From positions 1 through 21,925 of IMG/VR virus record IMGVR_UViG_3300009149_000334: a stretch of 21,925 nucleotides of DNA. One strand, 5' to 3'. A program made the translations under genes and the position numbers. Position 1 is the first letter of the stretch. Each line of letters begins with the position of its first letter. The notes beneath the pieces are model-generated. The model was not told the DNA's origin and did not search any database. It was given only the letters and a program-made list of their open reading frames with translations. This DNA is from a virus. Positions 883-21,925 of the stretch are shown here, in pieces.

Positions 883-3324
883 CTAACTCCTTGGCAGTAA
901 AGTTGAAAAATTTCCTGCCTGACTTTCATTCCCCGTGTAGCTCCTAACTACCCATTCCAAGTCGGCTGTAGTTAACATTGATTTATCCAATTTAGAAAAA
1001 GTAGATAGAAACTCTGCCATGCTAACTACACTTCCATTTTTGGATACTTCACAAAGTTCTGTAGCTCCTGAACTGGAGGTTAAAGCTATTTCCATTACTC
1101 TTGTTTCATCATCTGCGAGAATAGAATCCCATCTCGTAGCTGGTCCACCATAAGTTAGCCCATTAACCCAGTCTATTCCGTTTGAACTAGTCATTGTTCT
1201 ATCGGTAAGTCCCATCATTATCGAAACGGCACAAAAGCGGTTTAATTCTGGAGACCAACAAACTGCCATCCACATATGTTCCTCTACCGCATCTCGACTT
1301 GTCCAATTTGTTCCGTCAGGGCTTGTCATTACTCTATCATTAATCCCAGTATACGCTACAGCTACAAACAAAGTTAATTCTGGTGACCAGCAAACTGATT
1401 GCCAATAGTTATTCGCTGCACTAGTTCTACTTGTCCAATTGATACCGTCAGGACTTGTCATAGCTCTATTATTAGTACCCGAATACGCTACAGCTACAAA
1501 CAAAGTTAATTCTGGTGACCAGCAAACTGAAGCCCAAGCGTTGACGCTTGCACTATTTTGACTTGTCCAGTTGATTCCATCTGGAGAAGTCATTACTTGA
1601 GTAGGACTCCCATTGTCAGATACAGCTACAAAAAGTGTTAATTCTGGTGACCAACAAACTGAACGCCAATGATTATCCGCTGCACTAGTTCTACTTGTCC
1701 AATTGATTCCATCTGGACTTGTCATAACCCTATCACCAGTACCAGTACTCGCTACAGCTACAAACAAAGTTAATTCTGGTGACCAGCAAACGGATAACCA
1801 TTGGTAATCCGCTGCACTAGTTCTAGTTGTCCAATTAATACCGTCAGGGGAAGTCATTACTCCATCACCCGTTCCATCGTAAGAAACGGCTACAAAAAGT
1901 GTTAATGCTGGAGACCAGCAAACTGATTGCCACTGGTTATCCACTGAATTAGTTCTACTTGTCCAAACAGCACCATCTGGGCTAGTCATAACTCTAGTGC
2001 CTGTACCACTAGAGGCTACAGCTACAAAAAGTGTTAATTCTGGAGACCAACAAACTGAGTAATAGTAGTTATCCTCAGGTAAAAGGAAAGGTGTACTATA
2101 GTGCGTCCCTGTTACTTCGTTTACTTCCCCATAAACACCCACATCGGATGCACTAGAAGCGTGGAAAAGATACGCATCTCCCACCCCTTCAGTTAAGTGC
2201 ACAGAGAATAGAATCCTTTCCCCCGAAACATATTTTATTGCAGGATCAAAAACAAAAGTAAGAGAATTAACCCCAGAAGTTAATGTTATTTCATTTGAGG
2301 TTGATATAAGTATAGCTGTAGAAGTCTCCCAACTCCACAATTTAGCTACAACTTTGAGACCTGGAGTGTAAGTCTCTACAGCAGCTAAAATTTGGTAGAC
2401 TAGTGCGTCAGCACTTGCAAGAAAACCATACAAGTGGGTGTCTTCTCCTACAGGTACAAGTTTGGAATAACCAAACGGAGGAGTTATGTTACTCTCTAAA
2501 GTAGAGGGTGTGGCGTTAACTGTGAGAGGAGCACTACCTAAACATTCTACGTCCCAAACCACCCCTTCTGCGTCTATTATTCTAATATTACCATCGGAAA
2601 AAGGTTTCGTACTATCATCAAAATCGACTTGTAACTGAGTTTCTGTAGTAAAAGCGTCTGAACCATCTTTCATAGCTAACTTAAGAGTATAATCCCCTCC
2701 ATTTTCGTAAACTCCAACTTCTTCGGATGGACTTAAAACTTCATCCACAAAGTAGAAAGGATACATTGTGGGGATATACGTTCCAAACCCTTTAGCATTC
2801 ACATCATTTGTAAATCCAAAGTAGTCTAAATTTGCCATTGTAAATTCAGGATATCCTACTCCTGCGGCTTTAGCGGAGTCCACACTTGTATACAATCTAG
2901 GTTCTACAGGGTAGACAGGATTGTACAGCGTAATATTAAACTTCCCGTTGGTAGCATCGACATAAATATAATCTTCAGCTTCCGCAAACCTTTTGACAGA
3001 AAGCATTACATCTTTTTCGGTAGTATCAGAATTGTTCTCTGCTATTTTCCCATATATTCCTACCAAATAGTCTGCGTCTATCCTACCTAGTCTGTTTTCC
3101 CCTACCCATGTACCCATCCTAGCTAGGTTAACACCTACAGCAGCAGTCAGACTCCTATTGTCTAGTACGTCCTGCATTATATCTTCTAGATCTTGTGCAG
3201 GATTTACAAATATGGTTAAAAGACTATCCCAATTTCCTGAAGGAATTGCTTTATGTTTTTGAGGTAGCCTAGAAATAGCTCTTGCTACGTGATCATCTAT
3301 GTTTATAATTTCTTTAACTGACAT
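883..3324 (-). CDS. Baseplate wedge DUF2612 protein fused to Asp-box repeat propeller
   Basis: An 813-residue protein. Residues 1-195 fit DUF2612/tail-protein-I: 'NWDSLLTIFVNPAQDLED', 'LDNRSLTAAVGVNLARMG', 'GRIDADYLVGIYGKI'. Members I know are often around 200 residues, so the rest is extra. Residues about 205-410 look like beta-sandwich ('LKVVAKLWSW', 'NSLTFVFDPAIKYVSGERIL'). From about 420 to 735 there are seven copies of a 44-residue repeat with CWSP at W426, 470, 514, 558, 602, 646 and 690 and an Asp-box-like 'TSPDGINWT'; an eighth, degenerate copy follows ('RWDSILADDETRVMEIALTS'). This should be a beta-propeller. The protein would sit at the baseplate edge and may bind the receptor directly. 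SD AGAGGAG. A separate fibre gene with the same repeat follows after five bases. Confidence 0.85.
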   Translation of the reverse strand: MSVKEIINIDDHVARAISRLPQKHKAIPSGNWDSLLTIFVNPAQDLEDIMQDVLDNRSLTAAVGVNLARMGTWVGENRLGRIDADYLVGIYGKIAENNSDTTEKDVMLSVKRFAEAEDYIYVDATNGKFNITLYNPVYPVEPRLYTSVDSAKAAGVGYPEFTMANLDYFGFTNDVNAKGFGTYIPTMYPFYFVDEVLSPSEEVGVYENGGDYTLKLAMKDGSDAFTTETQLQVDFDDSTKPFSDGNIRIIDAEGVVWDVECLGSAPLTVNATPSTLESNITPPFGYSKLVPVGEDTHLYGFLASADALVYQILAAVETYTPGLKVVAKLWSWETSTAILISTSNEITLTSGVNSLTFVFDPAIKYVSGERILFSVHLTEGVGDAYLFHASSASDVGVYGEVNEVTGTHYSTPFLLPEDNYYYSVCWSPELTLFVAVASSGTGTRVMTSPDGAVWTSRTNSVDNQWQSVCWSPALTLFVAVSYDGTGDGVMTSPDGINWTTRTSAADYQWLSVCWSPELTLFVAVASTGTGDRVMTSPDGINWTSRTSAADNHWRSVCWSPELTLFVAVSDNGSPTQVMTSPDGINWTSQNSASVNAWASVCWSPELTLFVAVAYSGTNNRAMTSPDGINWTSRTSAANNYWQSVCWSPELTLFVAVAYTGINDRVMTSPDGTNWTSRDAVEEHMWMAVCWSPELNRFCAVSIMMGLTDRTMTSSNGIDWVNGLTYGGPATRWDSILADDETRVMEIALTSSSGATELCEVSKNGSVVSMAEFLSTFSKLDKSMLTTADLEWVVRSYTGNESQAGNFSTLLPRS
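1140..2075 (-). repeat. 132-bp coding repeats of the DUF2612-propeller gene
   Basis: Seven in-frame units with an exact 132-bp period; the marker GACC (plus strand) is found at 1253, 1385, 1517, 1649, 1781, 1913 and 2045. Units mix a few sequence variants, for example CTACAAACAAAGTTAATTCT against CTACAAAAAGTGTTAATTCT, in no simple order. Several blocks are nearly identical to those in the neighbouring fibre gene. Edges are approximate. Confidence 0.9.
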
Positions 3325-4622: not shown

Positions 4623-4976
4623 TTATCCCTCTGCCAGATTGAAATTTAAAATACCATCCGAAGTTACTGCGGTAAATGTTACATTCAAGGTACGCCCCCC
4701 ACTATCATAATCCAAATCAAATTTGGTTATGTCGAGTATACCATCAATTGAGGATATGGCATCAAGATATACACTTTCTATATCGGCAATGGAGGTCGCT
4801 TTTTTAAAAATAGTTTGAAAGTAAGGCATTCCTAATTCTAAGTCTAAAAACCAATCCCCTTCAAAAGATCTTAAAGTGTCACCCACTAATTGCTTTATTT
4901 CATCGATACCTTCAACGGTTGCTAGGTCCCCATCTCTTACAAATAAATCCTGATTGTTATCTGTTTCTAAAATCAT
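4623..4976 (-). CDS. Baseplate wedge protein gp25-like
   Basis: A 117-residue wedge protein. The family pattern is visible: 'DNNQDLFVRDGDLATVEGID', 'LVGDTLRSFEGDWFLDLELG' then 'MPYFQTIFKK' (compare G-E-W-F-x-D-x-x-x-G-x-x-Y in gp25/GpW proteins), and 'TKFDLDYDSGGRTLNVTFTA' at the C-terminus. These proteins connect sheath and wedge. It overlaps the spike gene by four bases (ATGA), behind GGAGAA, and the J-like wedge gene follows after five bases. Confidence 0.88.
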   Translation of the reverse strand: MILETDNNQDLFVRDGDLATVEGIDEIKQLVGDTLRSFEGDWFLDLELGMPYFQTIFKKATSIADIESVYLDAISSIDGILDITKFDLDYDSGGRTLNVTFTAVTSDGILNFNLAEG

Positions 4977-5683
4977 GATTTTTCTCCAAAGATAAAATCA
5001 CTGTTTTGATTTGCCAAAGCCGAACTTACACTAGCCAGGGAAGCTTCTACAGCGGTAGTAACTACTGTAGAGACAATGGTACCACTACCCGAACCTATAG
5101 TTTGCCCTACCGTTATCAAAGCTATTAAATCCTCTATTGATGAAATCAAATCTTCCAAATTAGTTTTTAGAGTATTTCCTAAAACCATAGGCTCCGCAGA
5201 TGCACCTGTTTTGCCTAACATTATTTTGTCACCTCTAACTTCTGTAGAGTCAGTAGCAGGAGCAGGAGACATTTTTCCGCTTAAAGGAAACAACCCAGCT
5301 AAGGCTATAGCGTCCGTAAAATCGTGCCTTCTAAAATCTGTTAGTTCAACTTCCCCCCCGTTGTCTATCCAATCATCCATAGATCTTTGGGAAAATAGTA
5401 ATAGAACAGAATCCCCTACCATGATTGGGATAGTAAAACCAAAGGCTCCCGATCTAGAAAATATAACAGGGACATCTTCAATTTCTGCTCTATTTGTAAC
5501 TACTCCTGCGGTAGTAGTCCTTTTAAAAGCCGGTTGTACTGTGCATGTCTGAGTAGAGGCATCATAACTAATAACTCTGGCTGGCATACAAGTATTGACT
5601 TCCAACATTTCTAATTCTATTAACTCTTGTATCACTTCTTCTTTGCTAGAAGTAGTAAACTCCATGCTGGGTATCTGTACCAC
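4973..5683 (-). CDS. Baseplate spike protein (Gp138/gpV-like)
   Basis: The membrane-piercing spike or its OB-fold base. Residues 30-60 ('CMPARVISYDASTQTCTVQP') match the Gp138 N-terminal OB-fold domain: an A-x-V-x-x-Y-D-x-x-x-Q-x-x-x-V-x-P pattern. It continues with 'DVPVIFSRSGAFGFTIPIM', 'GDSVLLLFSQRSMDDWI' and 'RRHDFTDAIALAGLFP', all typical of this family. The C-terminal third ('GQTIGSGSGTIVSTVVTTAV') is a small-residue beta/helical tip region without the His-x-His iron-binding tip motif. The start is GTG at 5683 with a strong GGAGGAA SD, overlapping the hub stop. It overlaps the next gene by four bases (ATGA). Confidence 0.85.
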   Translation of the reverse strand: MVQIPSMEFTTSSKEEVIQELIELEMLEVNTCMPARVISYDASTQTCTVQPAFKRTTTAGVVTNRAEIEDVPVIFSRSGAFGFTIPIMVGDSVLLLFSQRSMDDWIDNGGEVELTDFRRHDFTDAIALAGLFPLSGKMSPAPATDSTEVRGDKIMLGKTGASAEPMVLGNTLKTNLEDLISSIEDLIALITVGQTIGSGSGTIVSTVVTTAVEASLASVSSALANQNSDFIFGEKS

Positions 5684-7667: not shown

Positions 7668-9332
7668 TTAATTCAAGAACATATTTGTTTGGTTCTTTAC
7701 TCTTTTATCTGTACTATTGTTAGTCTGATCCAAGGTCTTAGGTAGTGAACCGTCTGGCTTCATATTTATAGTACTACTGTTATTTATGTTTAAGTTTTTA
7801 GTAGTCCTTGAAGCGGCTCCGGATCCCAAAGGTAGCCCCGACCATGCTCCTGCGCCTGGAAGAGGCATTGTGAAACCTCTCAAAGCGGTCAATTTCTGAA
7901 AACTGTCTGTTACTGATATGTATAATTTACCTCCAGCGGTAGTAGCAAGCCAGTTTCCAAACTCTTTCACACTTTCCATAAGTGCAAGCCAACTTCCAAA
8001 CATCGCATCGCCCAGGTCAAGCTTGTTTAGTTTTTCAAACGCCTGAACAAACACCCCAATCATAGACTTACCACCGTCATTTTTCATCCAAACACCGAGG
8101 TCTTCTATGATCAGAAACAAGGCGATTATACCAAACAACTTTCTGTTGAGTACACTAAAGGAACGGGCAAGCTTTAGAACATAAATTGCAGCGGCTCCTC
8201 CAAACACATACCCAAGAATATTGTCTTTAGTTCCCCACTTGTATATCCATGCGAATGATTTTACAATTCCTACCACTCCCCTAGTAAAATGGGCTAGTGG
8301 ACCTGTGATAGCTTCGATGCCTCTTTTAAGTGCTTTTACCCCTATAGTTATAGGCTCTAGTAAGGGTTTGCCTATCTTTTCGGCCATTACAATAAGAGCG
8401 TCACCTAAGTTATTTAATTGGGCAAGCATTGTTTTCATTTGGAGGGCCATTGCTTCAAAAAATCTGCCGCCTTTTTGTGTGAGGCTTTCCAAGGCTTTTG
8501 TTACTTCTTTAAAGCCTATCTTCCTTGCGGAAACCATTCTCATAATTTCAGGAGTAGTTTTACCTAGGGTTTTAGATAAAGCTTCATATATAGGGATACC
8601 TACTTTACCGAATTGTCGTACATCCTTTATGTTGGCTAACTGGGTATTTTTTATTTCTATCATGTTAGTCAACATGCGTCTTAGGTATACTATGCTTCCA
8701 GACGTAGCATCCCCCAACATTCTCAGTTGAGGAATTACTTCTTCTAAACCCATACCTCCACCAAGAGACTGTCTAGCTAGTTCTCTCAGAGAGTCTATTT
8801 GAAAGGGAGTCTCTTTAGCAAAAGTGTTGAGACGGTTCAAAAGATCGTCAGCTTTCGACTTACCTTCCTTACCTCCACCGAGTAAGCCAGAAAAAGCTTT
8901 CTGTTGCTTTTCCCTTTCCCCAGCTTTTTTCATTACGGCACCAATGCCTAGACCAGCTACTAGAGGTAGCCCTCCTAAGAGTGCCGAGGTTATAGCAGTA
9001 TTGCCTGAGACTCTACCAGCAAGGAAAGCTGCGGATTGCCCTAGTCCTGCTTTCCCTGAACCTTTACCTCTTGCTCCTACTCCTAATCCCCTGGCCGGTT
9101 TATCAAGGTTTCTGCGGTAATTAGTTACACTTTTATTAAGACTCTGCCAGCCGTCTCTTATCCTGCGTATTCTTTTAAATTCGCCTTTCCCAAAACTAAC
9201 TGAAGCACGCCTTACCGATTGAAAATTTTTCTTCAATCCTTGTATTGCCTGTGCAGTTTTCTTTATCTGAGAGGCATCAACTTTATACCTCCAGTGGGTG
9301 ATTAATTCTTGAACTATTTTTTTAGTCGACAT
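7668..9332 (-). CDS. Tail tape measure protein
   Basis: Sets tail length and is held inside the tube until injection. The 554 residues begin with a basic helical region ('HWRYKVDASQIKKTAQAIQG'), contain a Gly/Ala-rich hydrophobic stretch at about 108-135, then 'NTFAKETPFQIDSLRELARQ' and 'VIPQLRMLGDATSG', a pattern common to tape-measure domains, and two hydrophobic segments around 'YVFGGAAAIYVLKLARS' and 'FGIIALFLIIEDLGVW'. No lysozyme or peptidase motif is seen. At about 0.15 nm per residue the tail would be near 80 nm, short for a myovirus. ATG 9332 follows an AAAAGG SD made by the end of the frameshifted chaperone. Confidence 0.92.
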   Translation of the reverse strand: MSTKKIVQELITHWRYKVDASQIKKTAQAIQGLKKNFQSVRRASVSFGKGEFKRIRRIRDGWQSLNKSVTNYRRNLDKPARGLGVGARGKGSGKAGLGQSAAFLAGRVSGNTAITSALLGGLPLVAGLGIGAVMKKAGEREKQQKAFSGLLGGGKEGKSKADDLLNRLNTFAKETPFQIDSLRELARQSLGGGMGLEEVIPQLRMLGDATSGSIVYLRRMLTNMIEIKNTQLANIKDVRQFGKVGIPIYEALSKTLGKTTPEIMRMVSARKIGFKEVTKALESLTQKGGRFFEAMALQMKTMLAQLNNLGDALIVMAEKIGKPLLEPITIGVKALKRGIEAITGPLAHFTRGVVGIVKSFAWIYKWGTKDNILGYVFGGAAAIYVLKLARSFSVLNRKLFGIIALFLIIEDLGVWMKNDGGKSMIGVFVQAFEKLNKLDLGDAMFGSWLALMESVKEFGNWLATTAGGKLYISVTDSFQKLTALRGFTMPLPGAGAWSGLPLGSGAASRTTKNLNINNSSTINMKPDGSLPKTLDQTNNSTDKRVKNQTNMFLN

Positions 9333-9335
9333 AAA

Positions 9336-10012
9336 TCACCTTTTTTTGCTTGTCTTATAGTAATGGGTTTCTGCGTCTGACTTTATATCCAACGCTTCAT
9401 TTGCATCCGCTAAGTCACAAATATTCCAATAAGTGTTTACTTCTGTCAGGGTAGTAATTCCTTCGAGTATCGGTCTCCACTTCCATACGTTTATGTTAGT
9501 ATTACCGGCACTGAAAGGAGCAACGCAACCAGCACCTCCTACTGTTCTTCTGCGTTGCTTTCGCCTAAAAAATCACCGTACTGGTGCCTCAACACTTGAA
9601 ACATTACCTGATGCAATTCACTCATGCGACCTACAAAGTGATATGAAAAGTTAATTTCTTTCCCTTCACAATGTACCCCTTTTAGAATATGTTTCATGTA
9701 AGTGACATACTCTTTTGCGTCTAGGTTTTTTGCAATTTTTTGTACTAGCTCATTTATCGTTTTCTTTTCAGACGCTCTTTTGGCTTTCTTCTCCTCCTCA
9801 GAAAGTTTTTCTTCAGCTTCAGCAACGGCTGTAGGACTACTGAGTAAATTATCTACCCCATCAAATCCATCTTCTGACATGAATAAGGCTAGAATACCCT
9901 CTCCGAAGGTTTTTGTAATCCAAACTAAGGTTTCTAACTGCTTGTCTACTACCCAGTCACATATTACGTAAGTGCGACCTTTGATCTCGAAGCGTGTGGG
10001 TTCTTTCGCCAT
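9336..10012 (-). CDS. Tail assembly chaperone, long (-1 frameshift) form
   Basis: The gpGT-like product, predicted at 225 residues: the first 149 of the short form (to Leu149), then 76 residues read in the -1 frame from 9566 to the TGA at 9336-9338. The extension begins 'RRKQRRRTVGGAG' and includes 'NVWKWRPILEGITTLTEVN', 'YWNICDLADANEALDI' and ends 'YYKTSKKR'. The W-x-W and following helix pattern is typical of the second tail-chaperone domain in myoviruses. The extension frame has no usable start codon of its own, is open over the whole otherwise empty 206-base gap, and stops four bases before the tape measure ATG. Without this frameshift, that gap has no explanation. The codon-by-codon reading is direct; expression is inferred. 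Confidence 0.85.
9519..9572 (-). promoter_or_regulatory. -1 programmed ribosomal frameshift signal
   Basis: The slippery heptamer T-TTT-TTA (minus strand, 9572-9566) is exactly in phase with the zero frame (GAT TTT TTA GGC). Six bases downstream (GGCGAA) begins a perfect 9-bp stem: AGCAACGCA (9559-9551) pairs with TGCGTTGCT (9527-9519) around a 23-base loop. Heptamer, 5-9 base spacer and stem are the three classic elements of a -1 frameshift site. Location at the end of the tail chaperone gene matches the conserved position in tailed phages. Confidence 0.86.
9539..10012 (-). CDS. Tail assembly chaperone, short (0-frame) form
   Basis: The 157-residue zero-frame product, equivalent to lambda gpG. 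It begins 'MAKEPTRFEIKGRTYVI', has a long charged coiled-coil-like stretch ('EAEEKLSEEEKKAKRASEKK', about residues 65-84), and ends '...GDFLGESNAEEQ'. Such proteins bind the tape measure and recruit tube subunits before being discarded. It lies between tail tube and tape measure, the invariable place for these chaperones. SD is TAGGAG. A slippery heptamer occurs nine codons before the stop codon, so a fraction of ribosomes should produce the longer form described separately. Confidence 0.85.
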   Translation of the reverse strand: MAKEPTRFEIKGRTYVICDWVVDKQLETLVWITKTFGEGILALFMSEDGFDGVDNLLSSPTAVAEAEEKLSEEEKKAKRASEKKTINELVQKIAKNLDAKEYVTYMKHILKGVHCEGKEINFSYHFVGRMSELHQVMFQVLRHQYGDFLGESNAEEQ

Positions 10013-10049: not shown

Positions 10050-10535
10050 TTAAGGCTTTATACTGCCAGACTTTATACTGCCAGATAGTGTAGTCATAGC
10101 TGCCGATATATCAGTACCTCCTGCAAATATATCTATGTGACCAGCTTCTAAAGTCCATGTTCTATCACTTAATTCTTTACCATACTCAATGGAGGGAGCC
10201 TGTTGCACCCACATCTCTGTAGCTCCTACTATTGTACCTCCATGGGCATCAAGCAACGCTACTGGGAATTTTCCTGAATTGCTTGTTTCATCTAGTAATA
10301 AGTAAGCAGACAGTAAGTCATTAGTTTCTGACGTTTGCATTAGGACTAGCTCTATAGTCCCTGACTTGTCACAGCTTTTACTACGTGCATGTTCTCCAGA
10401 CGCTCCAGAAACTACAGACCACATTGGATTGTTGCGGTTTACAGTTATGAATGTTCCATCTGCAAAACCTGAAACAGCCTGTCCATCTATAGACAGTGTA
10501 ATCGACTTAGGATCATAATTTTTAGTGTTAGACAT
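10050..10535 (-). CDS. Tail tube protein (DUF3277)
   Basis: Forms the rigid inner tube of the contractile tail. The 161 residues follow DUF3277: 'YDPKSITLSIDGQAVSGF', 'VNRNNPMWSVVSGASGEH' with the conserved W and G-E-H-A-R-S pattern, 'DKSGTIELVLMQTS', and 'RTWTLEAGHIDIFAGG' near the C-terminus. A short repeated tail, 'LSGSIKSGSIKP', arises from a small internal duplication of the last codons. ATG 10535 lies 12 bases after the sheath stop with AAGGGGAA as SD. Confidence 0.92.
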   Translation of the reverse strand: MSNTKNYDPKSITLSIDGQAVSGFADGTFITVNRNNPMWSVVSGASGEHARSKSCDKSGTIELVLMQTSETNDLLSAYLLLDETSNSGKFPVALLDAHGGTIVGATEMWVQQAPSIEYGKELSDRTWTLEAGHIDIFAGGTDISAAMTTLSGSIKSGSIKP

Positions 10536-21641: not shown

Positions 21642-21925
21642 AAGGTAAAATTTTTTTAGTATATACGATTGTATATCGGTGAGGTAAATAAATTTTTGTA
21701 GTATATACGATTGTATATCGGTGAGGTAAATAAATTTTTGTATATCGGTGAGGTAAATAAATTTTTGTATATCGGTGAGGTAAATAAATTTTTGTATATC
21801 GGTGAGGTAGTATATACGATTGTATATCGGTGAGGTAAATAAATTTTTGTAGTATATACGATTGTATATCGGTGAGGTAAATAAATTTTTGTAGTATATA
21901 CGATTGTATATCGGTGAGGTAAATA
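21642..21925. repeat. Tandem repeat array (27-bp and 42-bp periods) upstream of terminase
   Basis: Eight copies of the core GTATATCGGTGAG begin at 21671, 21713, 21740, 21767, 21794, 21822, 21864 and 21906. Copies are spaced 27 bp (short unit) or 42 bp (short unit plus a 15-bp block GTAGTATATACGATT); one 28-bp step comes from a truncated copy. The long unit creates an inverted repeat, ATATAC-GATT-GTATAT, of which the short units keep only the right half. A decayed copy is visible at about 21642-21670. The array continues past the window edge, so its full size is unknown. Repeats are almost identical, which points to recent amplification or to selection. Position just upstream of the terminase genes makes a packaging (pac/cos) binding region, replication iterons or a multi-site operator possible; the sequence does not decide between them. 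Confidence 0.93.

Follow-up and report, generated by a model that had tools for sequence, protein, structure and literature searches.

The minus strand of the window (the 21,925-nt stretch of viral DNA analyzed here, from IMG/VR record IMGVR_UViG_3300009149_000334) very likely carries, on the sequence evidence, a G/GT-type (TAC-N/TAC-NC) cassette for programmed -1 ribosomal frameshifting, located in the tail region of an uncultured contractile-tailed phage (myovirus). The original prediction had named a lack of conservation in relatives among the results that would count against this reading; the -1 frame and the slippery heptamer are both conserved over 39 distinct loci.

Gene order and overlapping reading frames

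The zero frame (9539..10012, minus strand) runs from an ATG at 10012 to a TAG stop at 9541-9539 and encodes a 157-aa protein, assigned as the short form of the tail assembly chaperone (TAC-N/gpG-like). The tail-chaperone identity proposed for it held up, with a match to Pfam family PF21822, Phage_TAC_15 (E value of 1.9e-13; 51.4 bits against a cut-off of 22), and a second match to phrog_1613 (tail assembly chaperone; 4.7e-10). Phage_TAC_15 is matched by the zero-frame proteins of all 39 loci, 14 of which also match Phage_TAC_9. Fold matches were to annotated tail assembly chaperones, including the "tape measure chaperone" of Citrobacter phage Moogle.

The neighboring genes agree with this assignment, as the minus-strand order is tail tube, chaperone, tape measure. 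Upstream lies a putative tail tube gene (10050..10535, minus strand), which matches KPP10_Orf10 (4.5e-9) and phrog_280 (virion structural protein; 9.1e-41) and whose positional equivalent in phage Pam3 is annotated as tube. Downstream lies the tape measure gene (7668..9332, minus strand; PF20155 TMP_3, 9.6e-13; phrog_9959, 8.4e-34). By analogy, the tape measure protein would be the expected partner of the chaperone and the tail tube protein that of the C-terminal extension domain.

Between the zero-frame stop and the tape measure gene is a gap of 206 bases (9538-9333), as the original prediction had reported. This gap is spanned by a -1 frame extension (9336..9572, minus strand). Because the last upstream stop in that frame is a TGA at 9575-9573, the frame opens exactly at the first base of a T_TTT_TTA heptamer (9566..9572, minus strand), and it closes at a TGA at 9338-9336. 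The heptamer is read as GAT TTT TTA, the register that a simultaneous -1 slip requires, and is followed by a 6-nt spacer, GGCGAA (9560..9565, minus strand). Translation through it would add 76 new residues, the C-terminal domain of a 225-aa long form (TAC-NC/gpGT-like). The heptamer and its phase, the spacer, and the lengths of the extension and the fusion were correct as predicted when the minus-strand frames were checked. The four bases predicted between the extension stop and the tape measure ATG (9332) proved to be three (9335-9333). The extension had also been described as lacking a start of its own, which is true of ATG and GTG; a single late TTG (9392) could yield 18 codons at most.

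The heptamer alone is unconvincing, as in-phase XXXYYYZ heptamers are not rare: 36 occur across the 24 genes of the window, and we estimate a chance of about 5% for one within the 33-nt overlap considered. Chance is dismissed because signal and frame are conserved across relatives. Separately, two overlapping in-phase heptamers (GGGTTTTTTA, 6909-6900, minus strand) occur at the extreme end of the Dit-like gene (7658-6888), where a -1 shift would alter just the last few residues of the protein.

Two repeat regions lie elsewhere in the window. An AT-rich tandem repeat with 27- and 42-nt periods (21648-21925), at the contig end, is open in all three minus-strand frames and is probably noncoding. 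Two adjacent minus-strand ORFs (2-877 and 883-3324) share a 44-aa repeat (132-nt unit; motif NW.SVCWSPELTLFVAV..GTG.RVMTSPDGINWTTRTSAAD), with several copies in each. They are possibly a beta-propeller-like tail fiber region; a Pfam search of the longer ORF returned no match.

Conservation of the -1 frame in relatives

The extension alone was used as a probe against a viral contig collection and retrieved 44 matching contigs. Two of these (L047 and L048) have very long ORFs and no chaperone ORF in front; they were judged unrelated, which left 42 genuine relatives. The extension outperformed other probes: a search with the zero-frame protein found no relatives, and the sheath retrieved only two. 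A profile scan of genome contigs (prophages) with the extension gave 29 motif-bearing stretches and no confirmed case.

In all 42 relatives, as well as in the phages Erebus, RHph_TM26, and vB_EcoM_SD350, a chaperone-sized ORF (133 to 174 aa) lies ahead of the extension and overlaps it; relative to this ORF, the extension occupies the -1 frame every time. That the two frames were formerly one ORF, broken by a sequencing error or by decay of the gene, therefore carries a negligible probability. The frame break itself is all that suggests such an origin, and this explanation is already refuted because the break is conserved, recurring across some 40 independent contigs as well as isolates such as Pam3, RHEph04, RHph_TM26, Erebus, and Rosemountvirus phages.

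Once near-duplicates were taken out, along with two relatives that lack a canonical heptamer (L031 and L039), 39 distinct loci were left, the window included. Their in-phase heptamers are TTTTTTN in 36, A_AAA_AAA in two (L042 and L043), and G_GGA_AAG in one (L036); frameshifting has apparently been kept in these last three while the heptamer changed. The annotated phages Pam3, RHEph04, ctfzr933, and fHy-Eco03 have the same layout with T_TTT_TTC or T_TTT_TTT. L031 and L039 keep the extension and carry GATTTTGGT and GATTTCTCC where the heptamer would normally lie (around 4950-5000), which represents either another slip motif or a sequence error.

Beyond the zero-frame stop, comparison of the window with its five nearest relatives gave pN values of 0.18 to 0.27 against pS values of 0.69 to 0.96, and in four of the five the extension is more conserved than the chaperone at the protein level. 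These values indicate that the -1 frame is under purifying selection as protein.

A selected reading frame could also be a separate small gene, translated by reinitiation past the stop at 9539. A perfect AGGAGG (9540-9535, minus strand) overlaps that stop, and some annotations do call a small separate ORF, such as product 25 of Aminobacter phage Erebus. But no extension-frame start codon follows the AGGAGG, the TTG closest to it sits in another frame, and the only in-frame start in the window is the late TTG, 18 codons from the end. Among the 39 loci, the interval between the heptamer and the conserved W of the core contains no start codon whatever in 22 and no ATG in 34. Reinitiation also leaves the heptamer and its codon constraint unexplained, and we consider it very improbable.

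Candidate signals around the slippery heptamer

Codon choice in the chaperone genes points to constraint on the signal at the nucleic acid level. All T-heptamer loci (36/36) use TTT for the P-site Phe, compared with 141/256 Phe codons in the rest of these genes (p = 4e-9). The Glu located five codons upstream of the Asp/Asn codon is encoded by GAG in 22/22 cases (131/327 elsewhere; p = 5e-9). These p values of about 5e-9 overstate the evidence, since the loci have common ancestry and the heptamer itself partly defined the T6 set. Mere codon bias is unlikely, given that the GC content of the loci spans 0.30 to 0.70.

The conserved Glu codon forms part of an internal Shine-Dalgarno (SD)-like element 13 to 14 nt upstream of the heptamer, which is a strong GGAGGU in many relatives. 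In the subgroup of the window, that Glu position has changed to Leu-Arg, and the element is a GAGG (codons TTG AGG; 9587..9590, minus strand) 14 nt upstream. The Arg at this position is always AGG (six loci: the window, L005, L006, L009, L010, and L012), with GAGG kept in five of the six. Pairing of the window GAGG with the anti-SD sequence is weak (-5.6 kcal/mol; rank p = 0.14), and the site ranks at p < 0.1 in 23/39 loci. The codon data suggest that the element, overlooked in the original prediction, is maintained through codon choice in relatives, where it is better conserved than the downstream stem. An SD-like stimulator of -1 shifting is known from dnaX (PMC3711429).

Downstream of the spacer, a stem-loop (9519..9559, minus strand) is formed by AGCAACGCA (9559-9551) and TGCGTTGCT (9527-9519), with nine Watson-Crick pairs around a 23-nt loop. 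The loop encloses the zero-frame stop TAG, and the AGGAGG described above lies in it. The 66 nt downstream of the heptamer fold only moderately better than shuffled sequences (-21.6 versus -16.9 kcal/mol; z = -1.8), with 10 of 200 shuffles equally good. Placement was more telling: an equally strong contiguous stem begins 5 to 9 nt after a codon-phased position at only 0.8% of control positions (p = 0.008 for the window).

The same holds across the 39 loci. A strong contiguous stem starts 5 to 9 nt past the heptamer in 19 (each p < 0.1; about four expected), and the placement p values depart from uniform (Kolmogorov-Smirnov p = 1e-6). In contrast, the general folding excess is weak (mean z of -0.86 versus -0.3 to -0.6 in control windows); only the placement-restricted test is clear. 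The perfect 9-bp stem of the original prediction is thus present but specific to the window, with an 8-bp counterpart in L005, and the check for its conservation in relatives succeeded in part, because 11/39 loci have no stem at all. Position rather than sequence is conserved, and the stem is a frequent yet dispensable part of the signal. SD-like and stem strength show no significant trade-off (Spearman coefficient of -0.29, p = 0.08; Fisher p = 0.20), and in six relatives both elements fall short of the cut-offs used for a strong site.

These signals also bear on transcriptional slippage, in which a mixed mRNA pool would encode the fusion. In its favor, the site is a homopolymer run, extended to eight T residues in L018, L022, and L045. 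However, the run in the window is just six T residues, L036 has G_GGA_AAG in its place, and heptamer phase, SD-like element, and stem placement all favor the ribosome; slippage is accordingly given a very small probability.

The conserved sequence elements, the selection acting on the -1 frame, and the chaperone homology are established here, and from them we infer a ribosomal shift, its rate, the contributions of the stem and the SD-like element, and the roles and binding partners of the two protein forms. In the programmed frameshift that we favor, the majority of ribosomes would make the 157-aa chaperone and terminate at 9539, while a minority would pause at U_UUU_UUA with the help of the 9-bp hairpin. 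A further, probable aid to this pause would be weak base pairing between the upstream GAGG and the tail of the 16S rRNA. Both tRNAs would then re-pair one base back, and 76 further codons would be translated into the long form, with the junction GDFL-RRK or, in some molecules, GDFF-RRK; both the G/GT mechanism and heterogeneity at U_UUU_UUA have been described (PMC5009743). By analogy with lambda, the shared N-terminal part may coat the tape measure protein, while the C-terminal helical domain may recruit tail tube subunits. Efficiency could be low, because in E. coli U_UUU_UUA is less slippery than A_AAA_AAG (PMC5009743); G_GGA_AAG, the heptamer of L036, is highly shift-prone there (PMC5009743).

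The extension domain and known systems

The extension consists of a basic linker followed by a helical WRPIL...DANEALDIK domain, whose WR...DANEALDI core is invariant or nearly so among relatives. The zero-frame part and the extension were modeled separately, and AlphaFold predicts a disordered basic linker and then three helices for the latter, with pLDDT values exceeding 90 across most of the core. A profile search against tail-chaperone families had been proposed for these residues. It gave a match to phrog_4364 (1.3e-4 for the window; 33/39 loci) and a weak one to DUF6889 (PF21829; 0.0053 for the window, below the cut-off; 23/39 loci at an E value of ≤0.01), both of which are families of "unknown function." PDB sequence and fold searches returned no credible match, and proteins from the Pseudomonas phages PAK_P1 and PaP1 gave only weak fold matches.

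Existing annotation mostly passes over the extension. Among the 60 records listed, 46 have no feature under the extension match and three have no annotation of any kind. The Pam3 and RHEph04 records annotate the chaperone and leave the extension as a gap, while the Erebus fragment noted above is listed as a hypothetical protein of its own.

The original prediction had described the G/GT frameshift as established for tailed phages, and it has been reviewed as such for lambda and many others (PMC5009743). The locus resembles lambda gpG/gpGT in its order (tube, G, T, tape measure), in a -1 shift close to the 3' terminus of G that yields short and long forms, and in an extension without its own start (PMC5009743); unlike here, lambda is a siphovirus with a different host and slippery sequence. 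The three-part layout of SD-like element (weak in the window), heptamer, and hairpin resembles that of E. coli dnaX (PMC3711429). Unlike in dnaX, the heptamer is T6N rather than A_AAA_AAG, the hairpin or SD-like element may be missing in relatives, and the shift gives a longer rather than a shorter product.

A close parallel comes from a December 2025 paper on Pseudomonas phage Adele, which describes the same -1 strategy with a GTTTTT motif in Vandenendeviridae and Andersonviridae and notes the same annotation gap (PMC12846349). As here, these are myoviruses with TAC-N directly upstream of the tape measure gene, a -1 shift on a T run close to the 3' end, and a C-terminal domain annotated as hypothetical or intergenic. 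Their motif differs from the full T_TTT_TTN heptamer, and the passages on that locus describe no upstream SD-like element or stem. Our literature search, outside whose scope many subscription papers fell, found no paper containing both "Rosemountvirus" and "frameshift" and none naming Phage_TAC_15 or DUF6889.

Phage -1 frameshifting in tail chaperones is thus already known and its basic mechanism textbook knowledge, and the window is a well-supported new case. The present analysis adds the internal SD-like element, the distribution of the stem in relatives, and the link of phrog_4364 and DUF6889 to the extension. Tentatively, these observations could be read together as a modular signal across this large myovirus group, in which the heptamer class and the two stimulators (SD-like element and hairpin) can be swapped or dropped without loss of the -1 fusion and its DANEALDI domain, and in which phrog_4364 and DUF6889 would be a frameshift-encoded chaperone C-terminal domain rather than free-standing proteins. 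With parts swapped or lost and the fusion kept, a set frameshift rate would then be held by compensating parts.

The finding suggests a function for two families of "unknown function," phrog_4364 and DUF6889, and explains a recurring annotation gap of ∼200 bp in Rosemountvirus, Kleczkowskavirus, Pam3-like, and uncultured phages. The roughly 40 natural variants, which differ in heptamer type and in the presence of the SD-like element and the stem, offer a ready set for measuring how the parts of a bacterial frameshift signal together set the short-to-long ratio.
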